From Chelativorans salis (lineage in GTDB: Bacteria > Pseudomonadota > Alphaproteobacteria > Rhizobiales > Rhizobiaceae): a stretch of 64,000 nt of DNA. The DNA is taken from the NCBI RefSeq assembly GCF_025336525.1, contig NZ_JAOCZP010000007.1, positions 124,001-188,000 on the forward strand, written 5' to 3'. The position numbers and the translations under genes are program-made. Positions 38,756 through 63,453 of the stretch are shown here, piece by piece. The notes beneath the pieces were generated by a model. That model did no database searches. It was not told where the DNA came from and was given only the letters and a program-made list of their open reading frames with translations. The stretch's first letter is position 1, and each line of letters opens with the position of its first letter.

Positions 38756-38780
38756 AAGGTCCGAGCGAGGGAACCGTTCC
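38756..38780 (-). promoter_or_regulatory. Candidate EcfG/RpoE2-type stress promoter (for DUF427 gene)
   Basis: On the minus strand GGAAC (38780-38776), 16-bp spacer, CCTT then TA. It matches GGAAC-N18-TT and differs from GGAAC-N16-CGTT by one base. The -35 box lies 52 bp upstream of the ATG at 38724. It shares the palindrome 38769-38781 with the divergent promoter. Confidence 0.6.
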
Positions 38781-38794
38781 CTGATCACTCCATT
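38770..38794 (+). promoter_or_regulatory. Candidate EcfG/RpoE2-type stress promoter (for SDR gene)
   Basis: GGAAC (38770-38774), 16-bp spacer, CATT followed by TT. One base off the CGTT consensus, 112 bp upstream of the ATG at 38882. Its -35 is one arm of GGGAACCGTTCCC, whose other arm is the -35 of the divergent promoter, so two polymerases could not bind at once. Confidence 0.6.
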
Positions 38795-38881
38795 TTGATC
38801 GTGAGAGGCGGCGGTCGGTTCGGCGATCGTGCCGCGAAGGTGTCATGCCGGAAACGAAGGAACAATCGAGAGGAGAGAAGG

Positions 38882-39856
38882 ATGCCGCATAGGGAACGGA
38901 CAGCCCGCGCGGAAGCCGATGTCCAGCGGAAAGTGCAGCGGGAAGTCGATGCCGCCGACGAGGCCCGCAAGGCGAAGGGAAACGGCGGTGCGGTGCAGAC
39001 AGGGGCGCGTGAATATCCGGTCCCGCCCTTTCCGAAACAGCATCTGCCGAAGCCGGGAGACGAGCTAAGAGTCGACCCGCCGCCGATGTATGACGCGCCC
39101 TACTACCGCGGCTCGCAAAAACTGGAGGGGAAGGCCGCCCTCATAACCGGCGGCGACTCCGGCATCGGTCGCGCCGTCGCCGTGCTTTTTGCGCGCGAAG
39201 GCGCCGACGTGGCGATTTCCTATCTCACGGAACAGCGGGATGCGGAGGAAACCAAGGATGCGGTGATGCGTGAGGGCAGGCGATGTCTGCTGCTTCCCGG
39301 CGATGTCAGCCGGAAGGATGTCTGCGATGAGATCGTTGCCAAGGTGATCGCTGAATTCGGTTCGCTTGACGTGCTCGTCAACAACGCGGCTTTTCAGTAC
39401 CATGCGCTCGAGTTTGAAGACATCAGCCCGCAGCATCTCGACACGACGCTCAAGACCAATCTGTACGGCTACTTCTATATGGCGCAGGCAGCGGCACCGC
39501 ATATGAAACCTGGTTCCGCCATCGTCAACAGCGGCTCGGTCACCGGCATCGAGGGCAGCGGGGCACTTCTCGACTACTCGATGACGAAGGGCGGCATCCA
39601 TGCCTTCACGCGCGCCCTTGCCTCAAACCTGATCTCGCGGGGAATCCGGGTCAATGCTGTGGCGCCGGGACCCGTCTGGACACCGCTCAACCCGTCAGAC
39701 CGCCCGGCGGAACAGGTTTCTAAATTTGGCGCCAACACGCCGATGAAGCGACCGGCCCAGCCCGAGGAGATCGCGCCGGCTTACGTCTTTCTGGCCTCTC
39801 CCCACTGCTCAAGCTACATCACGGGAGAGATCCTGCCGATCATTGGAGGCTACTGA
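38882..39856 (+). CDS. SDR-family oxidoreductase with N-terminal extension (YghA-like)
   Basis: 324-residue SDR: about 80 residues of charged N-terminal extension with PPFPKQHLPKPGDE precede the Rossmann core (ITGGDSGIGRAV). Then come NNAAF, catalytic SGSVTG, and YSMTK (YxxxK). The long N-terminus with Pro/Lys motifs is usual for YghA-type dehydrogenases that appear in general-stress regulons. Substrate unknown. Confidence 0.92.
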   Translation: MPHRERTARAEADVQRKVQREVDAADEARKAKGNGGAVQTGAREYPVPPFPKQHLPKPGDELRVDPPPMYDAPYYRGSQKLEGKAALITGGDSGIGRAVAVLFAREGADVAISYLTEQRDAEETKDAVMREGRRCLLLPGDVSRKDVCDEIVAKVIAEFGSLDVLVNNAAFQYHALEFEDISPQHLDTTLKTNLYGYFYMAQAAAPHMKPGSAIVNSGSVTGIEGSGALLDYSMTKGGIHAFTRALASNLISRGIRVNAVAPGPVWTPLNPSDRPAEQVSKFGANTPMKRPAQPEEIAPAYVFLASPHCSSYITGEILPIIGGY

Positions 39857-39901
39857 CTGCTTCGGTCGGCCGCCGACCAATCCTTGGCTGCCGCAGTCAG
39901 T
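39852..39901. terminator. Nested inverted repeat between convergent genes, likely bidirectional terminator
   Basis: ACTGACTGC (39852-39860) pairs perfectly with GCAGTCAGT (39893-39901), and inside lies a second hairpin, GGTCGG-CCG-CCGACC (39864-39878). The outer arms contain the stop codons of both convergent genes. The structure is symmetric and could stop transcription from either side. There is no T-run, so Rho may be needed. Confidence 0.5.
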
Positions 39902-40914: not shown

Positions 40915-40939
40915 AACGCCGCACCCGTATTCGTGTTCC
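40915..40939 (-). promoter_or_regulatory. Candidate EcfG/RpoE2-type stress promoter, perfect consensus
   Basis: On the minus strand GGAAC (40939-40935), exactly 16 bp, CGTT (40918-40915). It reads toward the small membrane protein starting at 40893 and the 257-residue gene behind it. Confidence 0.75.
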
Positions 40940-41047: not shown

Positions 41048-41578
41048 ATGACGCACGCCAGCAAGGCGGTGCAGTGTACCGTTCTTTCAGCTGCGGTTTT
41101 CTGTGCCGGTATCGGAGCGGCACATGCTGAAACGGCACATGCGTCGCTGCAAGGAAACGACATATCGGGGATCGTGACCTTTACCGAAACGCCGTCCGGT
41201 ATCATTCGCGTGCTGGTGGAAGCCGACAATGTTCCGCCGCGCGGTCATGGCCTGCATATTCACGAAATCGGCGAGTGCGATGCCGGTACGGACTTTGAAT
41301 CCGCGGGAGGTCACATCGCAAAAGGTCTTACACACGGCACCGAGTCCGCTCGCGCCCCGCATCCGGGCGACCTGCCGAATGTCTACGCACAGGACGATGG
41401 CATCGTGCGCGCCGAGTTCTTTCTGCGCGGCTTGACCTTACAGGAAGGCGTCGAGCGCCTTTTAGATGATGACGGATCGGCCGTCGTCCTGCATGCCGCC
41501 CCTGACGATTACAGTACGGATTCCGAGGGCGGTTCGGGCGCACGTATTGCATGCGGTGTCCTCGAATTGGTGAGATAG
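41048..41578 (+). CDS. sodC: Periplasmic Cu,Zn superoxide dismutase
   Basis: 176-residue enzyme that dismutates superoxide in the periplasm. Signal peptide about residues 1-27 (ending AHA). Copper ligands His70 and His72 (GLHIHEIG), bridging His89, zinc ligands His96/His105/Asp108 (HPGDLPN), and copper ligand His149 are all present. Cys77 and Cys169 can form the conserved disulfide. The electrostatic loop is shorter than in eukaryotic enzymes, as usual for bacterial SodC. Confidence 0.95.
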   Translation: MTHASKAVQCTVLSAAVFCAGIGAAHAETAHASLQGNDISGIVTFTETPSGIIRVLVEADNVPPRGHGLHIHEIGECDAGTDFESAGGHIAKGLTHGTESARAPHPGDLPNVYAQDDGIVRAEFFLRGLTLQEGVERLLDDDGSAVVLHAAPDDYSTDSEGGSGARIACGVLELVR

Positions 41579-41599: not shown

Positions 41600-41624
41600 G
41601 GAACAAACAGCCTCGCGATGGGTT
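41600..41624 (+). promoter_or_regulatory. Candidate EcfG/RpoE2-type stress promoter (CBS-domain gene)
   Basis: GGAAC (41600-41604), 16-bp spacer, GGTT. It lies 151 bp upstream of the CBS gene start. It is enclosed by a 9-bp inverted repeat, TCCGCTCCC (41582-41590) and GGGAGCGGA (41651-41659). Confidence 0.65.
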
Positions 41625-43200: not shown

Positions 43201-43225
43201 GGAACATCGGCAACCGGCTGTGGTT
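43201..43225 (+). promoter_or_regulatory. Candidate EcfG/RpoE2-type stress promoter (UDP-glucose dehydrogenase)
   Basis: GGAAC (43201-43205), 16-bp spacer, GGTT (43222-43225). The -35 is 61 bp upstream of the ATG at 43262, the distance expected for a promoter with a short leader. Confidence 0.7.
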
Positions 43226-44990: not shown

Positions 44991-45015
44991 AACACGCGAG
45001 AAGGCCTTCTGTTCC
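44991..45015 (-). promoter_or_regulatory. Candidate EcfG/RpoE2-type stress promoter (87-residue protein)
   Basis: On the minus strand GGAAC (45015-45011), 16-bp spacer, TGTT. Divergent from the promoter at 45035, 19 bp apart. Confidence 0.65.
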
Positions 45016-45034: not shown

Positions 45035-45059
45035 GGAACAAAAGCTTCCTGCTGCGGTT
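45035..45059 (+). promoter_or_regulatory. Candidate EcfG/RpoE2-type stress promoter for the glycan operon
   Basis: GGAAC (45035-45039), 16-bp spacer, GGTT (45056-45059). The -35 lies 78 bp upstream of the GTG start of the first gene of the eight-gene operon 45113-54511. Confidence 0.7.
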
Positions 45060-45112: not shown

Positions 45113-46222
45113 GTGAAAGATATCGTGCTGATCACAGGAGGCGGCGGATTTATCGGTCGCCATGTTGCAAGCGAGCTGCTGGACAATGGCTTTGAAGTGC
45201 GCGTTTTCGACAGCCTTGTCGATCAGGTGCATGGGGGCCAGCCCGCCGTTCTGCCTGACGGAGTCGCGTTCACGCGCGGCGACATCCGCGATCCCGATGC
45301 AGTGCGGCGTGCGCTGAATGGGGTGAGCCTGGTGGTGCACTTGGCGGCAGAAGTCGGTGTCGGTCAATCCATGTATGAGATCGAGCGCTATGTCGGCGCC
45401 AACGACTACGGCACGGCCGTCCTGCTTCAGGAGATCGCGGCTCAGCCAGTCCGGCGTATCGTCGTCGCTTCGTCCATGAGCGTTTATGGCGAGGGGCTCT
45501 ACCGGAATGCGGCCGGCCGTGTCTACGACGATGTGCGAAGGGAACGATCGCGCATAGAGGCCAGATTGTGGGATCCTGCCACCCCTGACGGCGAGCCGCT
45601 CCTGCCTATCGCCACGACCGAAGATAAGCCGGTCGAGCTCGCATCGATCTATGCGCTGACTAAATTTGCGCAGGAGCGTGCCGTTCTCATCTTCGCCGAG
45701 GCCTACGGCATCGATGCGGTGGCGCTGAGGCTGTTTAATGTCTTCGGGCCGGGCCAGGCACTGTCGAACCCCTATACGGGGGTGCTTGCCAACTTCGCTG
45801 CGCGCCTGATCAACGGCGAGCCGCCGCTCATCTTCGAGGACGGTGCGCAGCGGCGCGACTTCGTGCATGTGCAAGATGTCGCGCGCGCCTTCAGTTTGGC
45901 TCTGCGCAAGCCGGAGGCGCGCGGCAACGTCATCAACATAGGCAGCGGCCGTGCCTACACGATCAGCAGCGTGGCGCGGTTGCTGGCCGAGGCGATGGAC
46001 ATGCCGGATGTCGAGCCTGAGATTCTCGGCAAGGCACGCGCGGGCGACATCCGCCATTGCTTTGCCGATATCTCGCGCGCACGCGCTTTGCTCGACTTCG
46101 AGCCTGCGTACCTGCTCGAGGATTCGCTGGTGGAACTGGCCGAATGGGTGCGGCGATCGGGCGCCGTCGATCGAGGTGCGGAGATGAAACGTCACCTCGA
46201 GGAAAGGGGGCTCGTATCATGA
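45113..46222 (+). CDS. NAD-dependent nucleotide-sugar epimerase/dehydratase
   Basis: 369-residue extended SDR: GGGGFIGRH at the N-terminus, catalytic Ser in SSMSVYG, YALTK (YxxxK), and the sugar-binding LRLFNVFGPGQA with a late RRDFVHVQDVA. It resembles dTDP-L-rhamnose 4-epimerase-like and UDP-sugar epimerases, so it likely changes the C4 configuration of a nucleotide sugar; the substrate is not fixed by sequence. Start GTG with AGGAG 6 bp before it. The stop overlaps the next gene (ATGA). Confidence 0.9.
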   Translation: MKDIVLITGGGGFIGRHVASELLDNGFEVRVFDSLVDQVHGGQPAVLPDGVAFTRGDIRDPDAVRRALNGVSLVVHLAAEVGVGQSMYEIERYVGANDYGTAVLLQEIAAQPVRRIVVASSMSVYGEGLYRNAAGRVYDDVRRERSRIEARLWDPATPDGEPLLPIATTEDKPVELASIYALTKFAQERAVLIFAEAYGIDAVALRLFNVFGPGQALSNPYTGVLANFAARLINGEPPLIFEDGAQRRDFVHVQDVARAFSLALRKPEARGNVINIGSGRAYTISSVARLLAEAMDMPDVEPEILGKARAGDIRHCFADISRARALLDFEPAYLLEDSLVELAEWVRRSGAVDRGAEMKRHLEERGLVS

Positions 46223-48249
46223 CCGTCACAGAACGTCCTTCTCATAGCGAGCGCAAATTCGGGTTCGTCGAGTGGTTCCGCCCCGGCGAGTACGAGCGTA
46301 CGGAGACGGTGCTTCCCGAAATTGTCGCTTCCGGCGCCTCCTATCTGCGCACGCACCTGTCTTGGGCAGAGTATTTCGCGCCGGGCGGGCCGGAGTGGTT
46401 CGACTGGCTCTTGCCAAGGCTTGCCGAGAAGCTGGATGTGTTGCCGTGCATCCACTACACCCCGCCCTCCATTTCGCGCACGGGCAAGACCTCAGGCGCG
46501 CCGCGCCGCCTCCGCGACTATGCTGACTTCGTGGATCACGTGCTGACGCGGTATGGGCACCACTTCCGCCACATCGAACTGTGGAACGAGCCGAACAACC
46601 TTCTCGACTGGGACTGGCGCGAAGACACGGATTTCCAGCTCTTCTGCGAGATGATCGGCGATGCCGCCCATTGGGCACGGGAACGCGGCTGGCATCCGGT
46701 GCTCGGAGGACCGTCGCCTTTCGATCCCTACTGGCTCGATCTGATGGGCGAGCGGGGCATTCTGGATTGCGTCAGCGCCATCGGGTTCCATGGGTTCCCC
46801 GGTACGTGGGACAGCGAGAAGGGAAGCTGGGGCGGTTGGGACCTGCATATCGGCGAGATGCGACGCATCGTCGACCGCTACAACAAGGCGGCTGGGATCT
46901 GGATCACCGAGACCGGCTATTCGACCTGGCGCAATGACGAGGTTGAGCAGGCGCGGCGCTTCATCAGCGCGCTCGATGTGCCGGCCGACCGCATGTACTG
47001 GTACAGCTGGCGCGACGTGCCGCACGACGTGGCGGTGCAGGAAGGTCTGTGGTTCGACGTCCGCCATTATCATCTGGGCGCTGTCGACAATTCCGGCCGT
47101 CTGAAGTTGTTGGCGCGGCTCTTGACCGATGACGGCGTCGACAAGGTGGCGGAGATCGCAAGCCTCGCCGCTCCCTCCATCGGCAGCAAAACCGAACCCG
47201 TGCTGATCACGGGTGGCAGCGGTTTTATCGGCGCCAATCTCGCGGACAGCCTGCTCAAGGACGGCGAGGAGGTCATCGTCCTCGACAATCTGAGCCGCCC
47301 TGGCGTCGATGAGAATCTTGGCTGGCTGAAGGAGAGGCACGGCGATCGCGTGCATCCGTTCCTAGCCGACGTGCGCGACTATATGACCATCTATCCCGCC
47401 GTCTCTGACGCCGGAGCGATCTTTCACCTGGCAGCTCAGACAGCCGTAACGAGCAGTCTCGTGCAGCCCTTTGACGACTTCGAGGTCAACGGCCGCGGAA
47501 CGCTGAACGTGCTGGAGGCGGCCCGCCAGTCGGGGCGGTCCATACCGATCGTCTTCGCCAGCACGAACAAAGTCTACGGGTCGCTCGACGACCTGGAGAT
47601 GATCGAACTGGAAGATCGCTACATGCCGGCCGACCGGCAGGTGCGCAAATACGGCATTAGCGAAGATCGCGGCCTTCAGTTCTGCACGCCCTACGGCTGC
47701 TCAAAGGGGGTGGCGGATCAATATGTGCTCGACTACGCCACCTCCTATGGCCTGCCGGTGGCGGTCCTGCGCATGAGCTGCATCTACGGTCCCCGCCAGT
47801 TCGGCACGGAGGACCAGGGCTGGATCGCCCATTTCCTCATCCGTGCGCTGGAGAACAAGCCGATCACCGTCTTCGGCGACGGCAAGCAGGTTCGCGATGT
47901 GCTGCACGTGAGCGATGCCGTGGCTGCCTATCGGCTGGTGCTGCGCAATATCGAGGAGCTTAGCGGCCAAGCCTTCAACCTTGGTGGTGGCCCAGCCAAC
48001 GCGGTCAGCTTGCAGGTCGTCCTGCAGAAGATCGCACATCTGAAGGGCAGAAAGCCGCAGGTCAGGCGCAAGGACTGGCGGGTCGGCGACCAGCTCTACT
48101 TCGTGGCCGACACACGTCGCCTGAAGCGTATCGGCTGGAGCCCCAAAGTGCCTTGGAGCGATGGCCTGGAGGATCTTACAGCCTGGTTGCGTGCAGAAAG
48201 GGTCTCAGTGCCCGAGGTGCGCGCCACTACAAGAACGATTGCGCGATGA
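46219..48249 (+). CDS. Fusion protein: glycoside hydrolase-like TIM barrel plus nucleotide-sugar epimerase
   Basis: 676 residues with two enzymes in one chain. Residues 1-310 resemble a clan-A glycosidase (GH39/GH5-like): proton donor Glu124 in LWNEPN and nucleophile Glu231 in IWITETGYS, the two glutamates expected for a retaining enzyme. There is no signal peptide, so this half works in the cytoplasm. Residues 325-676 form an extended SDR (GGSGFIGANL; STNKVYGS; YGCSKG, giving YxxxK), similar to CDP-paratose 2-epimerase-like enzymes. The frame is continuous. It is coupled to both neighbours by ATGA overlaps. Confidence 0.9.
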   Translation: MTVTERPSHSERKFGFVEWFRPGEYERTETVLPEIVASGASYLRTHLSWAEYFAPGGPEWFDWLLPRLAEKLDVLPCIHYTPPSISRTGKTSGAPRRLRDYADFVDHVLTRYGHHFRHIELWNEPNNLLDWDWREDTDFQLFCEMIGDAAHWARERGWHPVLGGPSPFDPYWLDLMGERGILDCVSAIGFHGFPGTWDSEKGSWGGWDLHIGEMRRIVDRYNKAAGIWITETGYSTWRNDEVEQARRFISALDVPADRMYWYSWRDVPHDVAVQEGLWFDVRHYHLGAVDNSGRLKLLARLLTDDGVDKVAEIASLAAPSIGSKTEPVLITGGSGFIGANLADSLLKDGEEVIVLDNLSRPGVDENLGWLKERHGDRVHPFLADVRDYMTIYPAVSDAGAIFHLAAQTAVTSSLVQPFDDFEVNGRGTLNVLEAARQSGRSIPIVFASTNKVYGSLDDLEMIELEDRYMPADRQVRKYGISEDRGLQFCTPYGCSKGVADQYVLDYATSYGLPVAVLRMSCIYGPRQFGTEDQGWIAHFLIRALENKPITVFGDGKQVRDVLHVSDAVAAYRLVLRNIEELSGQAFNLGGGPANAVSLQVVLQKIAHLKGRKPQVRRKDWRVGDQLYFVADTRRLKRIGWSPKVPWSDGLEDLTAWLRAERVSVPEVRATTRTIAR

Positions 48250-49391
48250 TGCAGGAATTTTCCGCAACATCGACGCGCCGGCATCCGCAGCCGCATGCAC
48301 CCATGCGCCTGCTGATGACTGTGGATGCCGTGGGCGGGGTGTGGCGCTACGCGATGGGTTTGGCGCGCGCGCTCGCGCCCTATGGGGTCTCCATCGTCTT
48401 CGTCGGCCTCGGACCAGCCCCGACTGCGGAGCAGCGTGCCGAAGCGCAGGTGCTCGGCGAGCTCGTCTGGCTCGATGTGCCGCTCGACTGGACATGCAGG
48501 CAAGAGGCCGAACTGGACGTCCTGCCCGAGTTGCTGCGGCATCTGGCGGACGAACACCAGATCGATCTCGTTCACCTCAATCTTCCCTCCCAGGCCTGCG
48601 ATCTGAAGATCGACGTCCCGACCCTTGTGGTTTCCCATTCCTGCCTCCCGACCTGGTGGCGGACGATGCGCCGAGCGCCGCTGCCGGACGAGTGGCAATG
48701 GCACTTGGCGCGCAACAAGTCCGGTTTCGAGCGCGCGGACGGCATAGTGGCGCCGAGCCGCAGCCACGCCAGATCTCTTGAAAAGTGTTATGGCGAGTTG
48801 CCGGGCCTTGCCGTGGTCCCGAATGCGCTCGCGGTTGCTCCGGAACCGGGGCCAAAGGAGGAGTTCGCATTCGCCGCAGCGCGCTGGTGGGACGAGAGCA
48901 AGAACGGCGAAATCCTCGACATTGCAGCGCGGCAGGAATCCTGGCCGCTTCTCATGGCAGGCCCTCTCTCAAGTCCCGATGGCCAACACTTCATGCCCGA
49001 ACACGCCTACTACTGCGGCGAGTTGAGCAACCGCGAGGTTCTCGAGCACATGCAACGCGCCGCCGTTGTCGTCTCGCCCTCGCTTTACGAGCCCTTTGGC
49101 CTGGTGGCGCTCGAGGCCGCGCATGCAGGCTGCGCGCTCGTTCTTTCCGACATCCCCACCTACCGCGAGCTGTGGGCGGACGCCGCGCTTTTCTTCGACC
49201 CGAACGACGCCGCAAGCCTTGCCGCCGCACTTGAGCGTTTGGCTGCCGATAAGGCGCTGCAGCGGGACCTGGCTATGCAGGCTTCAGAGCGCGCAGGGCA
49301 TTTCACCCCAAAGGCGCAGGCGGAGGCAATGATGGCGCTCTACCGCTCAATGTTCGCCGCCAGCCGCCAGCACAGCGCCGCGGGAGCGTGA
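48246..49391 (+). CDS. Glycosyltransferase family 4 protein
   Basis: 381-residue GT-B glycosyltransferase. The C-terminal donor-binding site reads SPSLYEPFGLVALEA, the E-x7-E motif of retaining GT4 enzymes; the N-terminal acceptor domain begins MRLLMTVDAVGGVWRYA after a 19-residue leader. Start at ATGATG overlapping the previous stop. Donor sugar not known; UDP-xylose or UDP-glucuronate are made by genes in the same region. Confidence 0.9.
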   Translation: MMQEFSATSTRRHPQPHAPMRLLMTVDAVGGVWRYAMGLARALAPYGVSIVFVGLGPAPTAEQRAEAQVLGELVWLDVPLDWTCRQEAELDVLPELLRHLADEHQIDLVHLNLPSQACDLKIDVPTLVVSHSCLPTWWRTMRRAPLPDEWQWHLARNKSGFERADGIVAPSRSHARSLEKCYGELPGLAVVPNALAVAPEPGPKEEFAFAAARWWDESKNGEILDIAARQESWPLLMAGPLSSPDGQHFMPEHAYYCGELSNREVLEHMQRAAVVVSPSLYEPFGLVALEAAHAGCALVLSDIPTYRELWADAALFFDPNDAASLAAALERLAADKALQRDLAMQASERAGHFTPKAQAEAMMALYRSMFAASRQHSAAGA

Positions 49392-50521
49392 CCATGCGCA
49401 TTCTTTTCTACACCCACTCGCTCACGTCCGACTGGAACCATGGCAACGCACACTTCCTGCGCGGCGTGATGCGCGAGCTCACGACACTCGGGCATGAGGT
49501 GCTTGCGCTCGAGCCCGCCAATGGCTGGAGCCGCAAGAACCTGAAGGCCGACCAGGGTTCTGCCGCCGTCGATCGCTTCGCGCGTGACTTCCCCGGCTTG
49601 CGCTCGGTCGCGTACGGTTCCGGCTTCCTCCATGAGGAGGTGCTGCAGAGCGCCGACGTTGTAATCGTCCACGAGTGGACGGAGCGCTCGCTGGTCGAGC
49701 GTATCGGCCGGGCGCGCCAGGAGAGTGGCCGCTTCACGCTCCTTTTTCACGATACGCACCATCGTGCCGTCTCGGCGCATCGGGATATCGAGGCACTTCA
49801 CCTTGAAGAGTATGACGGCGTCTTGGCATTCGGGGAATCTCTGCGCCAGCGTTATCTGGGGGCTGGATGGGGCCGCAGCGTGTTCACCTGGCACGAGGCA
49901 GCCGACACCGCTCTATTCAAGCCCATATCGCATGAAGGCGACTGCCGCGATTTGATCTGGATCGGCAATTGGGGTGACAATGAACGCAGCGCCGAGCTGC
50001 GCGAATTCCTGATTGAGCCGGCGGCAAGGCTTGGCCTTTCAGGCACCGTGCGCGGCGTGCGCTATCCGCGTCGCGCGTTGGACGCACTTGCCGAAGCGGG
50101 GCTCGACTATGGCGGCTGGATCGCCAATGCAGATGTACCGGCCGCATTCGCATGCCACCGCGCAACCATGCACATCCCGCGTCGCCCGTATGTCAAGGCA
50201 CTGCCGGGTATTCCGACGATCCGTGTCTTTGAGGCTCTTGCTTGCGGCATCCCTCTGATCTCGGCGCCCTGGAACGATACGGAAAATCTCTTCCGGCCCG
50301 GCGAGGATTTCCTCTTTGCACGCAACGGCGCCGAGATGTCTGCGTTTCTGCGAGAGATCCTGGCTGATCGGGAGCGCTCGGAAGCCCTCGCGGCCTCCGG
50401 TCTGGAGACAATCCGAGCGAGGCACACCTGCCGTCACAGGGCACGCGAACTCCTGTCGATCGTTTCGATCCTGGACAGAGCAGGGACGGAAAGCTCAATG
50501 CGGAAGGAGGCAGCCGAATGA
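49388..50521 (+). CDS. CgeB-like glycosyltransferase, paralogue 1
   Basis: 377-residue GT-B protein of the CgeB/DUF3880 type. N-terminal YTHSLTSDWNHGNAHFLRG and C-terminal IPTIRVFEALACGIPLIS match the two following proteins, so the three genes are tandem duplicates. Start is GTG overlapping the previous stop (GTGA); an ATG two codons later is possible. CgeB proteins glycosylate surface structures in spore formers; a surface or small-molecule role here is inferred. Confidence 0.85.
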   Translation: MTMRILFYTHSLTSDWNHGNAHFLRGVMRELTTLGHEVLALEPANGWSRKNLKADQGSAAVDRFARDFPGLRSVAYGSGFLHEEVLQSADVVIVHEWTERSLVERIGRARQESGRFTLLFHDTHHRAVSAHRDIEALHLEEYDGVLAFGESLRQRYLGAGWGRSVFTWHEAADTALFKPISHEGDCRDLIWIGNWGDNERSAELREFLIEPAARLGLSGTVRGVRYPRRALDALAEAGLDYGGWIANADVPAAFACHRATMHIPRRPYVKALPGIPTIRVFEALACGIPLISAPWNDTENLFRPGEDFLFARNGAEMSAFLREILADRERSEALAASGLETIRARHTCRHRARELLSIVSILDRAGTESSMRKEAAE

Positions 50522-51612
50522 AGATCGCGTTCTATGGATCAAGTCTCCTTTCCTCCTATTGGAACGGAGCAGCGACATACTATCGCGGCCTGCTGCAGGC
50601 GCTGTCCAAGCTCGGCTACGACATCACCTTCTATGAGCCCAACATCCGCGAGCGGCAGCAAAATCGGGACATGGAGCCACCCGACTGGTGCCGCGTCGTC
50701 GTCTATGATTGTGATAGCGCGTCGATGAAGCATGCAACAGAGCAGGCGGCGGACGCCGATGTGGTCGTCAAGGCAAGCGGCGTCGGCTTCGAGGATAGCG
50801 AGCTGCTGCAGTTGGTCCTGAATGCTGCCCGGCCGGAAACACTTACGATCTTCTGGGATGTCGATGCACCTGCCACTCTCGCCGAAATCGACCGTGATCG
50901 CGAACATCCGTTGCTCCGCGAGCTTTCACGGATCGATCTCGTCCTGACCTATGGCGGCGGCGATCCGGTGGTCTACGGATACCGTGCACGCGGCGCGCTG
51001 CATTGTATCCCCGTATACAACGCGCTCGACCCTCTCACCCATCACCCCGTCGCTGCCGATCCCCGCTTTGCAGCCGACCTCGCCTTCCTGGGTAACCGCC
51101 TGCCGGATCGCGAGGAAAGGGTAGAGACGTTTTTCTTCGGCGCGGCGTCACTCCTTCCCGATCAGACGTTTGTTCTAGGCGGTTCCGGCTGGTCCAGCCG
51201 GTCTCTGCCGGACAACGTGCGCTATCACGGCCACGTGCCGACGCGCGATCACAACGCCTTCAACGCCTCGCCCAAGGCCGTGCTAAACGTCAACCGACAG
51301 AGCATGGCTAGCAACGGCTACTCGCCGGCCACCCGCGTCTTCGAGGCTGCAGGCGCCGGCGCATGCCTGATTACCGACAGTTGGGCCGGGCTCGACCTTT
51401 TCCTTGCCGAGGGCAGTGAAGTGCTGGTGGCGCGTGATGGGAAAGATGTCGCCGACATACTGAACCGGCTGACGCCGGCTGAAGCCGCGAAGATTGGAGA
51501 GGCGGCACGGCAGCGCGTGACGCGCGAGCACACCTACGCCCATCGGGCCGAGCAGGTGCATCAGATCCTCTCCGGCTTCCTGCCCAAGCAGCACACGGAG
51601 GCTGCCGAATGA
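50518..51612 (+). CDS. CgeB-like glycosyltransferase, paralogue 2
   Basis: 364-residue paralogue. N-terminal YGSSLLSSYWNGAATYYRG and C-terminal YSPATRVFEAAGAGACLIT align with paralogues 1 and 3, followed by GLDLFLAEGSEVLVARD, the donor-site end of the family. ATGA overlaps at both ends. It differs enough from its neighbours to suggest a different acceptor or linkage. Confidence 0.87.
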   Translation: MKIAFYGSSLLSSYWNGAATYYRGLLQALSKLGYDITFYEPNIRERQQNRDMEPPDWCRVVVYDCDSASMKHATEQAADADVVVKASGVGFEDSELLQLVLNAARPETLTIFWDVDAPATLAEIDRDREHPLLRELSRIDLVLTYGGGDPVVYGYRARGALHCIPVYNALDPLTHHPVAADPRFAADLAFLGNRLPDREERVETFFFGAASLLPDQTFVLGGSGWSSRSLPDNVRYHGHVPTRDHNAFNASPKAVLNVNRQSMASNGYSPATRVFEAAGAGACLITDSWAGLDLFLAEGSEVLVARDGKDVADILNRLTPAEAAKIGEAARQRVTREHTYAHRAEQVHQILSGFLPKQHTEAAE

Positions 51613-52748
51613 ACCGCCAGCTCAACATCGTCGTCGTTGGCCTTTCCCTGTCGTCGTCCTGGGGCAACGGCCATGCCACCACGTATCGGTCGTTACTCAG
51701 GGGCCTGCACGGCAATGGCCACGACGTCCTCTTCCTGGAGCGCGACGTGCCGTGGTACGCCGATCACCGCGATCTGGCCACACCGGATTTCTGCCGCCTC
51801 GAATACTACCGCAGCCTTGAGGAGCTCGATGCGTTCTTGCCGGAAATCTCCGGAGCTGACGCAGTCATCATCGGCTCGTTTGTTCCGGAGGGGCGTGCCG
51901 TGATCGAGCGCATCCGCGCGATGAACCCGTCGCTTCTCGGTTTCTACGATATCGACACGCCGGTCACGGTCGCGCGGCTCGAAGCGGGCGAGGAAGACTA
52001 TCTGGCACGCCATCAGGTGCCGTATTTCGACCTCTACCTCTCCTTTGCAGGCGGCCGCATGCTCGAGCTTCTTGAAAACCGCTATGGCGCCAAACGGTCC
52101 GAAGCGCTCTTTTGCTCGGTCGATTCCGGTCTCTATATCCCTACCGGCGAGGACATGCGCTGGGATCTCGGCTATCTGGGTACCTACAGCCCGGACCGGC
52201 AACCGGCGCTCGAACAGCTCCTCATAGAACCCGCCAGGCGACTGCCGGAAAAGCGCTTCGCGGTCGCCGGCCCGCAATATCCTGCGGACATCGACTGGCC
52301 GACAAATGTCGAGCGGATCGATCACCTGCCACCTTCCGCGCATGCGTCTTTCTACAGCAGATGCCGCTTCACGCTGAATATAACCCGCGCCGATATGGTC
52401 GCTGCCGGTTTCTCACCAAGCGTGCGTATCTTCGAGGCCGCTGCCTGCGCAACGCCCATCATCAGCGATCGCTGGCCGGGGCTGGACGTGCTCCTGCCTG
52501 AGAGCGAGGCCATCTTCATAGCTGACGCGACGGACGACGTCGTGCGCGTGCTGACGGAGATCCCCGAGGAAATACGCCGCGGCGTGGCCGAAAATGCGCG
52601 TGCGCGTGTTCTGGCAAGCCATACGGCAGCTGCGCGTGCGGGCGAACTCACCAGCTACATCGAAACGCTGAACAAGCCCCCGGTACGCGGCGAGTGCGCC
52701 CCGAGGCAGCACGCTCCCGAGATCAGAAGCGAAGGTCAGCCGCAATGA
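51609..52748 (+). CDS. CgeB-like glycosyltransferase, paralogue 3
   Basis: 379-residue paralogue. N-terminal GLSLSSSWGNGHATTYRSLL and C-terminal FSPSVRIFEAAACATPIIS match the other two, with GLDVLLPESEAIFIAD after it. The C-terminal 30 residues are charged and unlike the paralogues. ATGA overlaps at both ends place it firmly in the operon. Confidence 0.88.
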   Translation: MNRQLNIVVVGLSLSSSWGNGHATTYRSLLRGLHGNGHDVLFLERDVPWYADHRDLATPDFCRLEYYRSLEELDAFLPEISGADAVIIGSFVPEGRAVIERIRAMNPSLLGFYDIDTPVTVARLEAGEEDYLARHQVPYFDLYLSFAGGRMLELLENRYGAKRSEALFCSVDSGLYIPTGEDMRWDLGYLGTYSPDRQPALEQLLIEPARRLPEKRFAVAGPQYPADIDWPTNVERIDHLPPSAHASFYSRCRFTLNITRADMVAAGFSPSVRIFEAAACATPIISDRWPGLDVLLPESEAIFIADATDDVVRVLTEIPEEIRRGVAENARARVLASHTAAARAGELTSYIETLNKPPVRGECAPRQHAPEIRSEGQPQ

Positions 52749-53731
52749 AGACGGTACTAATTGCCGGTGGCGCAGGCTTTCTCGGCTCTCACCTTTGCGA
52801 AGCGATCCTGCGGGAGGGAAACCGCGTAATCTGCGTCGACAGCTTTCTTACGGGCGCGCGCGCCAACGTTGTGCCCTGGCGCGCCAATGACCGGTTCAGG
52901 CTGGTCGAGAAAGATATTTGCACGCCCATCGAAATTGGCGAAAGGATCGACGAGATCTATAATCTCGCCTGCGCCGCCTCGCCTCCACGCTACCGTGCTG
53001 ATCCTGTCCACACCATGATGTCCAGCGTTCTGGGCACGCATAATCTGCTCCGGCTGGCCGAGCGCAAGGGTGCTACCTTTCTCCAGGCATCGACAAGCGA
53101 GGTGTATGGCGATCCTCGAGAACACCCGCAGCACGAGGATTATTGCGGAAACGTCAACTGTACCGGCCCACGCGCCTGCTACGACGAGGGCAAGCGCGCG
53201 GCGGAAGCGCTCTGCTTTGATTTCCTGCGCTTGAACCGCGCCAATGTCCGTGTTGCGCGTATCTTCAACACCTACGGACCGCGCATGCAGCCGGATGACG
53301 GACGCATCGTATCCACCTTCATCTGTCAGGCGCTGTCGGGCGCCCAGATCACCATTCACGGGACCGGCGAGCAAACGCGCTCCTTCTGCTACGTCTCCGA
53401 CCTTGTGCACGGCCTCATCCTCCTGATGCGCAAGCCGCAAAATCCCGGCCGGCCGATCAATCTCGGCAACCCGAGCGAACTCACGGTGAACGAGTTCATT
53501 CACCTTCTGGCACGGCAGATCGGCGTCATGCCCGAAGTCGTGCGACTGCCCATGTCGGAAGACGATCCGCAGCGGCGCCGGCCGGATATCCGCCGCGCAC
53601 AAGCTACCCTGGGCTGGCAGCCGCGCGTGCCGCTCGAAGAAGGCCTGCGCAGAACCATCAAGTGGTTCCAGCTCACGACGCAGCAGCGCGGCGGGCGCCG
53701 GCCGGCCACGCAGCATGCAACGAGCCTCTGA
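52745..53731 (+). CDS. UDP-glucuronate decarboxylase-like (UDP-xylose synthase) SDR
   Basis: 328-residue extended SDR. GGAGFLGSHL binds NAD; NLACAASPPRYRADP, STSEVYGDPREHPQ and TGPRACYDEGKRAAE (YxxxK) are the hallmark blocks of UDP-xylose synthase, which decarboxylates UDP-glucuronate to UDP-xylose. With the UDP-glucose dehydrogenase at 43262 it completes UDP-glucose to UDP-glucuronate to UDP-xylose within one region. Substrate assignment rests on motif memory. Confidence 0.9.
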   Translation: MKTVLIAGGAGFLGSHLCEAILREGNRVICVDSFLTGARANVVPWRANDRFRLVEKDICTPIEIGERIDEIYNLACAASPPRYRADPVHTMMSSVLGTHNLLRLAERKGATFLQASTSEVYGDPREHPQHEDYCGNVNCTGPRACYDEGKRAAEALCFDFLRLNRANVRVARIFNTYGPRMQPDDGRIVSTFICQALSGAQITIHGTGEQTRSFCYVSDLVHGLILLMRKPQNPGRPINLGNPSELTVNEFIHLLARQIGVMPEVVRLPMSEDDPQRRRPDIRRAQATLGWQPRVPLEEGLRRTIKWFQLTTQQRGGRRPATQHATSL

Positions 53732-53755
53732 TCTCATGTTTCGAGGGAGAGCCGA

Positions 53756-54511
53756 ATGAATGTGGACGCCCATCCCAGCCGGCAGTCGTCAATCCGCCGA
53801 CGCATCGAGGAACTGGCGCCATGGTTCCACAACATGACCATCGGCGGCGTGCCGACCGCTCCCAACCATTTCCTTGGCGATTATCCGCGCTGCAAGTGGG
53901 AGAAGTTCGCGCATGTCCTTCCGCAGGATATTGCAGGCCGCACCGTGCTCGATATCGGGTGCAATGCCGGTTTTTACGCGATCGAGATGAAGCGGCGCGG
54001 CGCTGGACTCGTCGTCGGCGTGGATTCCGATCCGCGCTATCTGGCGCAGGCGGAGTTCGCCGCGACGCAGGCTGGCGTAGACCTCGATCTGCATCAGATG
54101 TCGGTCTACGACGTCGGCAGGTTGGGTCGGAAGTTCGATATCGTTCTCTTTCTGGGCGTGCTCTACCATCTGCGCCACCCGCTGCTGGCGCTTGATCTCA
54201 TCTATGAGCATGTGGCGGGGGACATGCTTCTCATGCAGTCTCTGCAGCGTGGTCGGGACGCGGTGCCGGAGGTCTGCGCCGACTATCCGTTCTCGGAGTG
54301 GCAGGTTTTCGAGCAGGCGGATTTTCCGCGCCTCCACTTTGTCGAGCATTGCTATGCTGCTGACCCGACGAACTGGTTCATTCCCAATCGTGCGGCCGTG
54401 GAAGCCATGTTGCGCAGCGCCGGCTTCCGCATCGAGAAGCACCCGGAGCGCGAGGTCTATCTGTGCCGGCGCGACAGGAGACCGGAGATGGTCGAGCCGC
54501 CGCCGCTTTGA
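53756..54511 (+). CDS. SAM-dependent methyltransferase, TIGR04290-like
   Basis: 251-residue class I methyltransferase. The N-terminus holds NMTIGGVPTAPNHFLGDYPR, a block I associate with the TIGR04290 (Rta_06860) family; SAM binding uses VLDIGCNAGFYAIEM; FLGVLYHLRHP follows. The C-terminus has an HPEREVYLC strand. It lies 24 bp after the UXS-like gene as the last operon member. It may O-methylate the glycan or its acceptor. Confidence 0.88.
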   Translation: MNVDAHPSRQSSIRRRIEELAPWFHNMTIGGVPTAPNHFLGDYPRCKWEKFAHVLPQDIAGRTVLDIGCNAGFYAIEMKRRGAGLVVGVDSDPRYLAQAEFAATQAGVDLDLHQMSVYDVGRLGRKFDIVLFLGVLYHLRHPLLALDLIYEHVAGDMLLMQSLQRGRDAVPEVCADYPFSEWQVFEQADFPRLHFVEHCYAADPTNWFIPNRAAVEAMLRSAGFRIEKHPEREVYLCRRDRRPEMVEPPPL

Positions 54512-57456: not shown

Positions 57457-57532
57457 TTCGTTTGCTCGTTCGCTGATTCTGTTCCAGCCGAACAAGATGC
57501 TGCGGGAAATGTTCCGGGGGCGGAGCAGCGGA

Positions 57533-57557
57533 AAAGCCGAGAACTTTCAAGCGTTCC
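57533..57557 (-). promoter_or_regulatory. Candidate EcfG/RpoE2-type stress promoter (dehydrogenase/NepR-like operon)
   Basis: On the minus strand GGAAC (57557-57553), 16-bp spacer, CTTT. One base off CGTT. The -35 lies 101 bp before the ATG at 57456. Divergent from the sigma-gene promoter 41 bp away. Confidence 0.55.
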
Positions 57558-57598: not shown

Positions 57599-57623
57599 GG
57601 AACGCTATTGCTCACAGCGCATT
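57599..57623 (+). promoter_or_regulatory. Candidate EcfG/RpoE2-type stress promoter of the ECF sigma gene
   Basis: GGAAC (57599-57603), 16-bp spacer, CATT (57620-57623). The -35 is 91 bp upstream of the sigma-factor ATG, so the gene may be autoregulated or controlled by another EcfG-type factor. Confidence 0.6.
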
Positions 57624-57689: not shown

Positions 57690-58289
57690 ATGCTGCCGTC
57701 ACCGCGCCCGCAAATTGGCGTTCCGAAAGATAGTGAACTACCTCAGAAAGACAGTGAACTACTCGATCTTATTCCCGCACTCAGAGCCTTCGCCCGCACC
57801 TTCTACCGTGATCGTTGCGATGCGGACGATCTGGTCCAGGAGACGCTGACCAAGGGGCTGGCGAACATCCATCGGTTTCAAGCCGGCACCAGCATGAAGT
57901 CCTGGCTTTTCACCATCATGCGCAACACGTTCTGCACGCGCGGCAAGATCGCCAAGCGTGAGCTGCCCGGGTTCGAGGACTGTGCTTCCATGCGCCCGGC
58001 GGTCGACCCGGAGCAGGAATGGTCGGTGCGTGGAATCGAAGTGCGTGAAGCCCTCCAGCGACTTCCCGAGCAGCAACGCCAGGTGCTCGTGCTCGTCGGC
58101 GTTCTCGGTGTCAGCTACCAGGAAGCGGCTGAGATTTGCGGCTGTGCGATGGGAACGGTCAAAAGCCGCCTCAACCGCGCCCGCCTGCGGCTTCTCGACG
58201 AGTTGGGCGAGAATGCTTCCCGGTCCACTGTGGAATCAACCAATGAACATCCCGTCGCTTCGATAAAGAACGGTTCTCTCGTGGAGTGA
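57690..58289 (+). CDS. ECF sigma factor, EcfG/RpoE2-like (general stress type)
   Basis: 199-residue sigma factor of the sigma-70 family. Region 2 has DADDLVQETLTKGLANIHRF and SWLFTIMRNTF, which are close to rhizobial RpoE2/EcfG; region 4 has LPEQQRQVLVLVGVLGVSYQ and GTVKSRLNRARLRL. The linker (KRELPGFEDCASM) is short, and there is no extra C-terminal domain. AGGAG lies 8-12 bp before the ATG. The presence of a NepR-like gene 0.7 kb downstream and many GGAAC promoters nearby fits a general-stress sigma. PhyR is not in the window, so this may be one of several EcfG paralogues. Confidence 0.9.
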   Translation: MLPSPRPQIGVPKDSELPQKDSELLDLIPALRAFARTFYRDRCDADDLVQETLTKGLANIHRFQAGTSMKSWLFTIMRNTFCTRGKIAKRELPGFEDCASMRPAVDPEQEWSVRGIEVREALQRLPEQQRQVLVLVGVLGVSYQEAAEICGCAMGTVKSRLNRARLRLLDELGENASRSTVESTNEHPVASIKNGSLVE

Positions 58290-60308: not shown

Positions 60309-60333
60309 AACGTCGAACCCGGAGCGAAGTTCC
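60309..60333 (-). promoter_or_regulatory. Candidate EcfG/RpoE2-type stress promoter, perfect consensus
   Basis: On the minus strand GGAAC (60333-60329), exactly 16 bp, CGTT (60312-60309). It reads toward DUF883, the holin-like gene and the 52-residue membrane protein. The -35 is 63-67 bp from the ATG at 60266. Confidence 0.8.
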
Positions 60334-60357: not shown

Positions 60358-60383
60358 GGAACATTCGGCCGCGTGATTTTGTT
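60358..60383 (+). promoter_or_regulatory. Candidate EcfG/RpoE2-type stress promoter (60531 gene)
   Basis: GGAAC (60358-60362), 17-bp spacer, TGTT (60380-60383). Divergent from the promoter at 60309, on the strand toward the gene at 60531 and perhaps the 848-residue fusion. Confidence 0.5.
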
Positions 60384-60704: not shown

Positions 60705-60776
60705 TCCCCGTGCTCGCCGCACACACCAGAAAGCTGAAGACGTAGGACGGGCGCATCGCTCGCCAACGGGATACGA

Positions 60777-63323
60777 ATGAATAGCAGGCAGGACGTCGTC
60801 ATTGTCACGGGCAGCAGCGGCTTTATCGGTTCCACGCTGGTTAAGAAGCTGGCGGACCGGTTTGTGCCGGTCGGCCTCGACCTTTTCGTACCGGAGCACA
60901 CCCCGGCAGACGCGGAATACATCCACATCGACCTGACCTCCGACGAGAGCGTCGGCCAGGCGCTGGGGCAAGTGCGGGAGCGCTACGGCGACCGCATCGC
61001 CTCCGTGATCCACCTGGCCGCCTATTTCGACCTGACCGGAGAACCGGACCCGAAGTATGAAGCAGTGACGGTGCGCGGCACGGAGCGGCTGCTCCGGGCG
61101 CTGCAGGATTTCGAGGTCGAGCAATTCGTCTTTTCGAGCACCATGCTGGTCCACGCTCCGGGTAAGAAGGGGCAGCCGATCAACGAGGACTGGCCGCTCG
61201 ATCCCAAGCTTCCCTACCGCGCCTCGAAAATCAGGACGGAAAAGCTGATCCGCGAGCAGCGGGGAAACATTCCGGCCGTCTTGGTGCGGCCGGCCGGCGT
61301 TTATGACGAGATGTGCCGCGCGACCTTTCTCGCGCACCAGATCGCCCGCATCCACGAGCGTCTGCTTGTTAGCCATGTCTATCCGGGCGACTTGGACACG
61401 GGTCAGCCTTTCGTCCATCTCGATGATCTCATGGATGCACTTCTTGCAGTCGTGGAACGCAGGAAAGAGCTGCCGGCGGAACTGCCGCTTCTCATCGGGG
61501 AGACGGAGACGCCGAGCTTTGGTGAACTGCAGAAGGAACTCGGTCGACTGATTCACGGCGAGGAGTGGGAGACACGGCAAATCCCGAAGAGCATCGCGCG
61601 CACCGGATCGTGGGTGCAGGGCAAGGTGCTGGATCAGGATCCCTTCATCCGCCCGTGGATGGTCGACATCTCGGACGACCATTATGAGCTGGACATTTCG
61701 CGGGCCCGAAAGCTCCTGGACTGGGAACCAAAGCATTCTCTACGCCAGACCCTCCCCAGGATGATCGACGCGCTGAAAGCCGATCCTGCGGGATGGTACA
61801 AGGCCAACAAGCTCAATCCGGCCTCAGTGGCGCCGGAGCAGGTCGAGACGGAGGAACGCGAAGAAGAGGAGAAGACGGACCCCGAGCAACATCAGGCTGC
61901 CATGCGCGAACACATGCAGCAGATGCGCATGATGCACTTCGATGTGCTCTGGGTACACTTCTTCAATATGCTGCTCGGACTCTGGCTGGCAACAAGCCCC
62001 TTTGTCTTCGGCACCTTCGGCACCGACACCTTCAGCGACGCGGTCATGCGCGTGACCGAGGAGCGCGGCCTGTGGGATCCTTCGCTCCGCAGTTCGCTCA
62101 CCGCCTGGAGCGACTTGTTAAGCGGCATCCTGATCGTCGCGTTCTCGGCCTTCGCGCTCTCGCCGCGCTTCAGCTGGGCGCCATGGGCCAATACAGCGGT
62201 CGGTATATGGCTTCTCTTCGCGCCGCTCGTCTTCTGGGCGCCGAGCGCGGCCGTCTACGCCAACGACACTTTTGTCGGTGCGCTTGTCATCACCTTTTCC
62301 ATCCTCGTGCCGATGATGCCGGGCATGAGCCACGAGGGCATGATGGACGAATCCGACATGCCGCCCGGATGGACCTACTGCCCCTCCACCTATTTGCAGC
62401 GCCTCCCCATTATCGCGCTCGGCGCCATCGGTTTCGTCATCGCCCGCGCGCTCGCCGCCTATCAACTCGGCCATATCGACTACGTATGGGAGCCTTTCTT
62501 CGCGGGGGAAGGCGACCGCAACGGCACCGAGTTCATCATCACCTCCGACGTGTCAAAGGCCTGGCCCATCGCCGACGGCGGTCTGGGTGCAACCAGCTAC
62601 ATGTTCGAGATCCTGATGGGGGTGATGGGCGGGCGGTCGCGCTGGCGCACCATGCCGTGGATGGTGCTTCTGTTCGGCATCGTCGTGGTGCCGCTCGGCG
62701 TCATATCGATCTACTTCATCATCATCCAGCCGATCATGATCGGCACCTATTGCACGCTGTGCCTTGCGGCGGCGCTCGCCATGCTGATCATGATCCCCTT
62801 CGCTCTCGATGAGCTGGTGGCGATGGGCCAGTTCCAGCTTGCCAACACCCGCCGCGGCCACCCCTTCTGGCGCTCCTTCTTCATGGGCGATGCGCTGCCG
62901 GGCAGCGGCAAGGACACGAAGCGGCCCGGCTTCGACGTGCCAATTGGCGAGCTTGTCCGTTCGGCCGCGCGCGGTGTGACGGTGCCGTGGACACTGGTCG
63001 CGAGCTCAGTGCTCGGCGCCTGGTTGATGTTCAGCCGCCTGGTCTTCGGCACCGAACCGCCGATGGCCGACAGCGATCATCTGGTCGGCGCGCTGATTAT
63101 CACCGTCGCCGTCATGGCCATGGCCGAGGTGGGGCGTCCCCTGCGCTTCATCAACGTCGCCTTCGGCCTCTGGCTGATCGCGGCACCCTGGCTCCTGACC
63201 GGCGGCGGCACGCTAGCCGCGGCGCATGGCGTCGTCACCGGTCTTATACTGATCGCGTTGAGCTTGCCGCGCGGCGCGCGCAGTAAAGAGCACTATGGCA
63301 GCTGGGATCGCTACGTCTTTTAA
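60777..63323 (+). CDS. Fusion protein: atypical SDR, SPW-repeat membrane modules and VKOR-like domain
   Basis: 848 residues. Residues 1-350 form an extended SDR (TGSSGFIGST at 11-20; YRASK, i.e. YxxxK at 147-151). An acidic linker (EREEEEKTD) follows. The rest is membrane: SPW-type hydrophobic repeats (LWLATSPFVFG and LWLIAAPWLL) on both sides of a VKOR-like four-helix core with conserved SDVSKAWPIADGG and redox CTLC (YCTLCLAAAL). VKOR enzymes regenerate disulfide-forming DsbA-type proteins or reduce quinones. The fusion ties an NAD-binding enzyme to a membrane redox domain. The gene is intact. Confidence 0.88.
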   Translation: MNSRQDVVIVTGSSGFIGSTLVKKLADRFVPVGLDLFVPEHTPADAEYIHIDLTSDESVGQALGQVRERYGDRIASVIHLAAYFDLTGEPDPKYEAVTVRGTERLLRALQDFEVEQFVFSSTMLVHAPGKKGQPINEDWPLDPKLPYRASKIRTEKLIREQRGNIPAVLVRPAGVYDEMCRATFLAHQIARIHERLLVSHVYPGDLDTGQPFVHLDDLMDALLAVVERRKELPAELPLLIGETETPSFGELQKELGRLIHGEEWETRQIPKSIARTGSWVQGKVLDQDPFIRPWMVDISDDHYELDISRARKLLDWEPKHSLRQTLPRMIDALKADPAGWYKANKLNPASVAPEQVETEEREEEEKTDPEQHQAAMREHMQQMRMMHFDVLWVHFFNMLLGLWLATSPFVFGTFGTDTFSDAVMRVTEERGLWDPSLRSSLTAWSDLLSGILIVAFSAFALSPRFSWAPWANTAVGIWLLFAPLVFWAPSAAVYANDTFVGALVITFSILVPMMPGMSHEGMMDESDMPPGWTYCPSTYLQRLPIIALGAIGFVIARALAAYQLGHIDYVWEPFFAGEGDRNGTEFIITSDVSKAWPIADGGLGATSYMFEILMGVMGGRSRWRTMPWMVLLFGIVVVPLGVISIYFIIIQPIMIGTYCTLCLAAALAMLIMIPFALDELVAMGQFQLANTRRGHPFWRSFFMGDALPGSGKDTKRPGFDVPIGELVRSAARGVTVPWTLVASSVLGAWLMFSRLVFGTEPPMADSDHLVGALIITVAVMAMAEVGRPLRFINVAFGLWLIAAPWLLTGGGTLAAAHGVVTGLILIALSLPRGARSKEHYGSWDRYVF

Positions 63324-63428
63324 GCAGGGGGCGACCATGTGCGCCATCATGTGCTGGAGCTGACTGTCACAAGCATTCACGGTAACCCCCCCAGCATAGT
63401 TTCCGCTGTTGAAGCAGATCGGCGATAC

Positions 63429-63453
63429 GGAACTTTCCGTGCATGCTGCTGTT
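63429..63453 (+). promoter_or_regulatory. Candidate EcfG/RpoE2-type stress promoter (AI-2E-type permease)
   Basis: GGAAC (63429-63433), 16-bp spacer, TGTT (63450-63453). The -35 is 113 bp upstream of the ATG at 63542. The 63324-63541 interval holds no other supported feature. Confidence 0.65.

Follow-up and report, generated by a model that had tools for sequence, protein, structure and literature searches.

A second EcfG-type sigma gene lies among EcfG-type promoter sites

The window analysed here is a 64-kb stretch (positions 124001-188000) of contig NZ_JAOCZP010000007.1 (C17) in the 5.66-Mb draft genome of Chelativorans salis. Between 38.7 and 63.5 kb it holds an island in which the gene of a second, non-canonical EcfG sigma factor, EcfG2, is surrounded by promoter-like sites of the form GGAAC-N16/17-[C/G/T][A/G/T]TT, a pattern taken from a first-pass annotation and used in our scans. 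The twelve strong sites named in that annotation are all present in the sequence. Conservation was assessed for 15 sites (the twelve strong ones, two weak ones and an additional site, 57491-) against a C. xinjiangense-like genome, G003. The sigma gene and the sites before it and its neighbours are the following.

57690..58289, plus strand: EcfG2, a second, non-canonical EcfG/ECF15-type sigma factor of 199 aa; TTG at 57660 is an alternative start
38756..38780, minus strand: GGAAC-N16-CCTT, 5' of DUF427 and SDR genes, 31 bp from the called start; not alignable in G003
38770..38794, plus strand: GGAAC-N16-CATT, 5' of the SDR gene at 38882; not alignable in G003
40915..40939, minus strand: GGAACA-N15-CGTT, 5' of a small open reading frame (ORF) and gene 39897-40664, 250 bp from the next called start; kept in G003
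40989, plus strand: weak site, CGAAC-N16-GGTT, 5' of the Cu/Zn superoxide dismutase gene; not alignable in G003
41600..41624, plus strand: GGAACA-N15-GGTT, 5' of a CBS-domain gene (41751) and an epimerase-like gene (42201); kept in G003
43201..43225, plus strand: GGAACA-N15-GGTT, 5' of the UDP-glucose dehydrogenase gene at 43262; kept in G003
44991..45015, minus strand: GGAACA-N15-TGTT, 5' of small gene 44695-44958; kept in G003
45035..45059, plus strand: GGAACA-N15-GGTT, 5' of a sugar/glycosyltransferase operon; kept in G003 as TGTT
54528, plus strand: weak site, GAAAC in place of GGAAC; unchanged in G003
57491..57515, minus strand: GGAACA-N15-TGTT, likely promoter of the 56443-/55418-/55002- unit; unchanged in G003 and kept in a second relative
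57599..57623, plus strand: GGAAC-N16-CATT, promoter-like site of ecfG2; kept in G003
60309..60333, minus strand: GGAAC-N16-CGTT, 5' of the weakly DUF883-like gene 59931-60224 and its neighbours; kept in two relatives
60358..60383, plus strand: GGAACA-N16-TGTT (spacer 17), 5' of a small ORF and gene 60777
63429..63453, plus strand: GGAAC-N16-TGTT, 5' of the membrane-protein gene at 63542; kept in G003

Twelve of the 15 sites could be aligned to G003, and the ten good sites among them all keep GGAAC and the last three -10 bases (80/80 columns). Over all twelve aligned sites, motif columns were kept at 92/96 and flanks at 3257/3844 (motif versus flanks, p 0.001), and the spacer columns together with the first -10 base at 170/205 (versus flanks, p 0.49). 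The first -10 base of 60309- is C here and A (AGTT) in two relatives, and at 60358+ G003 has lost one spacer base with the motif still formed. CBS orthologues at two other EcfG2 loci likewise have GGTT, and orthologues of small gene 44695-44958 at other EcfG2 loci are also preceded by sites. The strong site at 57533..57557 on the minus strand (GCTT) is probably no promoter, its -35 and -10 both being broken in G003; the first-pass list thus describes existing sequence throughout, with this one doubtful entry and the likely site 57491- missed.

Density and placement of the sites

Scanning the window returned 19 rows for 15 distinct -35 starts, four sites being compatible with both spacers; in 100 shuffles of the window the mean was 8.4 rows (sd 2.9, largest 15). 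Thirteen sites fall in the island (25.5 kb), none wholly inside a called gene, and 11 of these are upstream sites, that is, within 250 bp 5' of a called start on the same strand, at distances of 31 to 250 bp. The gene caller misses many small genes, and 40915-, 60309- and 60358+ stand before such genes. As background from the same genome we used an 800-kb sample (69 sites, 21 upstream), the rest of C17 (222 kb; 26 sites, 9 upstream) and 111 kb of contig C19 (7 sites, none upstream). Per 25 kb, the island has 10.8 upstream sites versus 0.66, 1.0 and 0, respectively, and they are 10 to 16 times denser there than elsewhere in the genome, bearing out the first-pass claim of crowding upstream of genes. 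At the rate of the 800-kb sample and the rest of C17 (C19 excluded), 0.75 upstream sites are expected in the island, giving P(>=11) = 5e-10, a value that flatters because both the island and the pattern were picked after the sites had been seen; the comparison with all other sampled windows is independent of that choice, and there the densest 20-kb window holds 10 upstream sites inside the island and 4 outside. Control patterns gave no upstream site in the island with a reversed -35 or with spacers 12/13, and one with spacers 20/21. The first 37 kb of the window, whose intergenic regions were described earlier as empty of sites, contain one loose match at 4676, inside ORF 3804-4919, and otherwise none.

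All 13 island sites have the GGAAC -35 and the 16/17 spacer of EcfG-type promoters. Only 2/13 have the canonical CGTT -10, which the first-pass annotation had given as part of the consensus, compared with 25/41 among upstream NGTT sites sampled elsewhere in the genome, and strict GGAAC-N16/17-CGTT shows no enrichment in the window, occurring twice against an expectation of 1.16.

The island sigma is a non-canonical EcfG

Pfam finds Sigma70_r2, Sigma70_r4_2 and PhyR_sigma2 (the last over cut-off) in the island sigma, and its best PDB match is 5uxx (RNA polymerase sigma factor, E 1.6e-32), which we take to be an EcfG. The protein is thereby kin to the ECF15/EcfG sigma factors, and its own gene is preceded by an EcfG-type promoter site, GGAAC-N16-CATT, with CATT instead of CGTT. 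It is 48% identical to the genome's canonical EcfG1, whose phyR-nepR-ecfG1 locus (C17:110281-112030) lies about 13 kb left of the window.

C17:111233-112030: PhyR, canonical locus
C17:110865-110960: NepR, canonical locus
C17:110281-110823: EcfG1, the canonical EcfG

GGAAC-N-CGTT sites precede phyR and the nepR-ecfG1 unit, and a span of about 72 kb on C17 takes in both EcfG systems. No nepR or phyR was found beside the island sigma, the genome's only NepR match and PhyR being about 71 kb off (C17:110.9-112.0 kb). Because the canonical EcfG sits with PhyR and NepR at this other locus, the island sigma is a second, non-canonical EcfG; lacking adjacent nepR and phyR it is barred from the canonical name, and the non-canonical one still fits. 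The expectation of a stress-type island with an EcfG-like sigma was right, the sigma being the genome's second EcfG. A fourth PF22029 match, at C19:165263, is over cut-off but has a very long branch and stands before an anti-sigma-like gene, and was not treated as an EcfG.

The nearest named relatives of EcfG2 are in Chelativorans xinjiangense (86% identity) and C. alearense (73 and 77%, two copies); the C. alearense copies lie on different contigs (L063, 10001-10564; L064, 4876-5406). In a tree from which 7/12 PhyR rows and 22 Mesorhizobium-range rows were dropped, the EcfG1 rows form one group (98/95) with the window sigma outside, and the EcfG2-type rows are not resolved as one clade, R. 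etli EcfG2 and RpoE5 being on long branches.

We further examined the best 80 of 116 loci holding a relative of the island sigma (named genomes; 1.57 Mb), with sigma protein rows from 61 of the 80 and the window. At these loci, spacer 16 accounts for 269 upstream sites and spacer 17 for 126, where one site can fit both, and the remaining spacers between 12 and 21 for 6 to 37 each; therefore, the sigma tends to sit among EcfG-type promoters. Two loci are without any site, and several, mostly Chelativorans, have only the sigma's own. Of the sites before sigma-family genes, 57/70 have the form GGAAC-N16-CATT, and CATT stands in front of the sigma at 56/80 loci. Genes downstream of sites, mostly non-C at the first -10 base, encode a long catalase, DUF892, trehalose synthase (family 20), DNA ligase, Nramp, a TPP enzyme and Inos-1-P synthase; Ku is mostly under CGTT. 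At three Stappia loci (L066, L068, L073), the 20.6 kb surrounding the sigma contain between 11 and 13 upstream EcfG-type sites; as in the window, GGTT sites there precede CBS-domain and superoxide-dismutase-like genes.

The first -10 base and the base after GGAAC differ between EcfG2 and canonical loci

In the window's GTDB genus, 15 canonical loci have C first in 62/72 NGTT sites and in 11/11 gene families, families being scored by the majority of their sites. At the EcfG2 loci and the window the first -10 base by family is G in 47, C in 39, A in 27 and T in 20, which differs from the canonical loci (p 4e-6) and from the sampled rest of the own genome (C leading in 23/39 families; p 0.001) and does not differ from base composition (p 0.59). 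Caller-based NGTT counts (canonical loci, gene families, within-genus) omit both island CGTT sites. Comparison within the genus set 10 loci titled Chelativorans plus the window against canonical loci from 15 genomes of the GTDB genus, other named genera included, sites before sigma genes being dropped here and in the by-genus counts: non-C to C families are 16:1 on the EcfG2 side and 0:10 on the canonical side (p 1.3e-6), the canonical families containing 10/70 non-C sites and the 16:1 becoming at most 16:3 once the two CGTT sites before uncalled small genes are added. By genus, non-C exceeds C in Mesorhizobium (121:40), Stappia (24:6), Chelativorans (12:1) and Aliihoeflea (11:2). Promoters round EcfG2 and its relatives have thus lost the preference for C as first base of the -10.

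Furthermore, non-C sites tend to carry A after GGAAC (GGAACA-N15-DGTT, where D is A, G or T). At EcfG2 loci and the window this A is found in 156/241 non-C versus 39/94 C sites (p 1e-4; family-weighted 59/97 versus 14/44, p 0.002), compared with 6/62 C sites at canonical loci. GGAACA is present in 6/7 DGTT sites of the window. With the island sites added by hand in own-genome first-base tests (2 C, 7 non-C), GGAACA-DGTT makes up 6/9 NGTT sites in the island versus 5/41 outside (p 0.002), and upstream GGAACA-N15/16-DGTT was called five times in the island and five times in 1.93 Mb outside. Orthologues from genomes with and without EcfG2 gave no clear picture: in those of a DUF892 gene, A follows GGAAC in 5/5 non-C sites with EcfG2 (four DGTT, one GATT) and in 0/2 DGTT sites without. 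Orthologues of the island's SDR gene have TGTT at 4/4 NGTT sites with EcfG2 and GGTT at the single one without, with genomes of intermediate sigma mixed. A whole-genome count of GGAAC-N16-DGTT across 121 genomes of the family was dominated by chance matches; its control behaved erratically, and the count was not used.

On the protein side, the EcfG1 and EcfG2 consensus sequences (rows L140 and L141 dropped) agree at 23/28 positions in region 4.2 and at 16/30 in regions 2.3-2.4. At residue 80, 16/16 EcfG1 have Glu, and Thr, Ala or Ser is found in 62/62 EcfG2-type rows, as well as in R. etli EcfG2, RpoE5 and a homologue from R. tropici; the two groups also differ at residues 71 and 83. The non-C share at EcfG2 loci is independent of which of the three stands at residue 80. 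In the complex of sigma-L (PMC6372665), the flipped '-11' G is stacked against Trp68, and '-12' is bound as well. Aligning Trp72 of the island sigma with this tryptophan would make the C/non-C base '-12'. The same mapping would bring residues 80 and 83 near sigma-70 residues 437-441, the -12 determinant.

Gene content and borders of the island

Units under sites include SDR oxidoreductases, a DUF427 protein, a CBS-domain protein, UDP-glucose dehydrogenase, a zinc alcohol dehydrogenase with a GFO/IDH/MocA oxidoreductase, and the sigma gene itself. Other genes of the island are given below.

45113..54511, plus strand: eight-gene operon with four glycosyltransferases, three epimerase/dehydratase-type genes and a TIGR04290 methyltransferase
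41048..41578, plus strand: Cu/Zn superoxide dismutase (Pfam Sod_Cu, E 1.1e-32), with only the weak site 40989+ upstream
60777..63323, plus strand: 848-aa fusion protein with epimerase, VKOR and SPW domains (Pfam)

The DUF883-like match of gene 59931-60224 is weak and below cut-off. Within the operon, 46219-48249 encodes a 676-aa protein with a C-terminal epimerase domain and no Pfam match in its first half. The approximately 1 kb behind the sigma gene (58290-59285) is without a gene found by the caller and may hold decayed genes. A tRNA-Arg (CCT) at 30517-30593 marks a fall in third-position GC from about 0.8 to about 0.65, the island lying to its right; no att repeat of this tRNA was found on the contig, no integrase beside it and no integrase match inside the island, and an integrase-type match at 22.4 kb of the window is presumably a housekeeping recombinase. 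Right of the window, C17:188638-193522 holds three genes, one DNA ligase D polymerase-like and two glucan-synthesis-like, before lysA-/argH-like genes.

Comparison with known EcfG systems

The island resembles the canonical EcfG/RpoE2 system in its GGAAC -35, 16/17 spacer and nearly identical region 4.2, and departs from it where the canonical system has a CGTT -10, Glu80 and adjacent nepR and phyR. R. etli EcfG2 is likewise a second EcfG without adjacent nepR or phyR (PMC3892343). We took RHE_RS26680 on p42f, from its position and similarity, as the probable PF00052 of that study. Like the island sigma it combines Ser71, Thr80 and Thr83, and is flanked by GGAAC-N16-NGTT sites; in the 30 kb round it, spacers 16/17 yield 13 upstream NGTT sites, compared with a single one for ten other spacers together, 10/13 being non-C and five of those ten having A after GGAAC. 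Unlike the island sigma, its own promoter is without the GGAAC-N16-CATT form in our scan, and its orthology is not proven because identity is about 50% and the branch long. For the EcfG2-dependent genes of R. etli the authors report having found no motif, 1/19 units matching the EcfG1 motif (PMC3892343).

S. meliloti RpoE5 (SMb21484) is an ECF15 paralogue that sits on a second replicon and carries Ala80 and Thr83; its promoter is listed as GGAAC-N16-CATT and the gene rises with RpoE2 (PMC6180224), on which it depends with a mapped start (PMC3616915). The same CATT site is seen before rpoE5 in S. meliloti SM11, where sites nearby are four non-C and two C. Unlike the island sigma, RpoE5 is described with an adjoining NepR-like reading frame (PMC6180224). 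Sphingopyxis (EcfG1/EcfG2), Caulobacter (SigT/SigU) and M. extorquens (EcfG1-6) have, like C. salis, several EcfG paralogues per genome; these are described as sharing targets, unlike the division proposed below for the island. The paralogues of Caulobacter and Sphingomonas are reported to form tighter clusters than the R. etli pair (PMC3892343).

A putative cascade from EcfG1 to the island promoters

In order to rationalise these observations, we propose, as a moderately probable reading of the sequence comparisons, that 38.7-63.5 kb is a general-stress effector island with its own second sigma, reached through EcfG1, ecfG2 and then the island promoters, at which the first -10 C is not needed. 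Under stress, PhyR would strip NepR from the canonical EcfG1, which would transcribe CGTT promoters together with the conserved CATT promoter of ecfG2. EcfG2 would in turn transcribe the island promoters, for which the GGAAC -35 and the 16/17 spacer would be kept and the first -10 C dispensable, with a preference for A after GGAAC. A likely cause of this relaxation would be the replacement of Glu by Thr, Ala or Ser at residue 80, in sigma region 2.4. The CATT promoter of rpoE5 and its activation by RpoE2 support the step from EcfG1 to ecfG2.

Several points weigh against this cascade. In R. etli, ecfG2 kept about half its level when EcfG1 was absent; tested in E. coli, R. etli EcfG1 failed to raise ecfG2 directly, and EcfG2 also used the phyR and ReC64 promoters (PMC3892343). 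Overexpression of RpoE5 in S. meliloti had one detected target (PMC6180224). Sphingopyxis EcfG1 and EcfG2 both use CGTT, TGTT, CATT and GGTT in vitro, CGTT being strongest at each promoter tested and changes away from it lowering output (PMC7083833), and the M. extorquens paralogues are reported to share a C/GGTT consensus (PMC4814048). Among our own counts, a non-C excess is absent (non-C:C) from Rhizobium (7:9), Paramesorhizobium (3:5), Aquibium (1:4) and Prosthecomicrobium (1:2), the R. tropici locus has two non-C and three C, the first base alone is not significant in the own genome (7:2 in the island versus 16:25 outside, p 0.06), and DUF892 orthologues show no clear difference in first base (C in 4/8 NGTT sites with EcfG2, 3/5 without). 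The tree, moreover, places PhyR inside EcfG2, which is likely an artefact. Because of the published behaviour of the Sphingopyxis, M. extorquens, RpoE5 and R. etli sigmas, EcfG2 is most reasonably regarded as tolerant at the first -10 base and not as having turned against C.

An unlikely alternative is that EcfG1 alone drives the island, its first -10 base being loose and the non-C promoters tuned lower, with ecfG2 a minor target, as proposed for Caulobacter SigU. The M. extorquens consensus, the graded activity of the -10 variants in Sphingopyxis, the single RpoE5 target and the p value of the own-genome test all fit this account. The preponderance of C at canonical loci shows, however, that EcfG1 targets are not generally loose; non-C goes with A after GGAAC at EcfG2 loci and not in the rest of the own genome (5/16 non-C, 8/25 C), and sites cluster round ecfG2 in many genera. 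It is rather improbable that both sigmas read all promoters alike and that the -10 difference stems from island evolution through shared ancestry, lower GC and drift. Such an origin would agree with the match of the EcfG2-locus first base to base composition, the targets shared in R. etli, and the five promoters tested that Sphingopyxis EcfG1 and EcfG2 share (PMC7083833), but family-level counts, which remove most shared ancestry, still differ, the base after GGAAC differs too, and the R. etli paralogues each favoured their own promoters in E. coli (PMC3892343). That the sites arose by chance or serve another regulator, for which the lack of enrichment of strict CGTT sites might speak, is very improbable in view of their density, spacer dependence, placement and conservation.

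A wider generalisation of the proposed cascade is offered tentatively, as a possibility we rate below an even chance: the alphaproteobacterial general stress response might contain a second promoter code, in which EcfG1 would need the first -10 C through Glu80 and the EcfG2 group, lacking Glu80, would read GGAACA-N15-DGTT. Regulators would stay under CGTT, and many effectors (in this scheme catalase, superoxide dismutase, ferritin-like proteins, trehalose synthase and DNA ligase) would be gathered in islands moving together with a CATT-switched sigma of their own.

Half of the surveyed completed alphaproteobacterial genomes have two or more EcfG copies, for a purpose described as not satisfactorily explained (PMC3892343), and a 2021 review calls the promoter of non-canonical EcfG "yet to be determined". 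No promoter motif for the non-canonical group was found in the open-licence literature searched; the pattern of a non-C first -10 base and A after GGAAC in promoters round EcfG2 and its relatives is new here. The island promoters suggest which DNA sequence the non-canonical class reads, and they offer a concrete promoter pattern, a candidate residue and natural promoter sets for testing both at the bench. If the proposed cascade is true, one stress signal would be divided between the core regulators and protective genes that sit with a sigma factor of their own.

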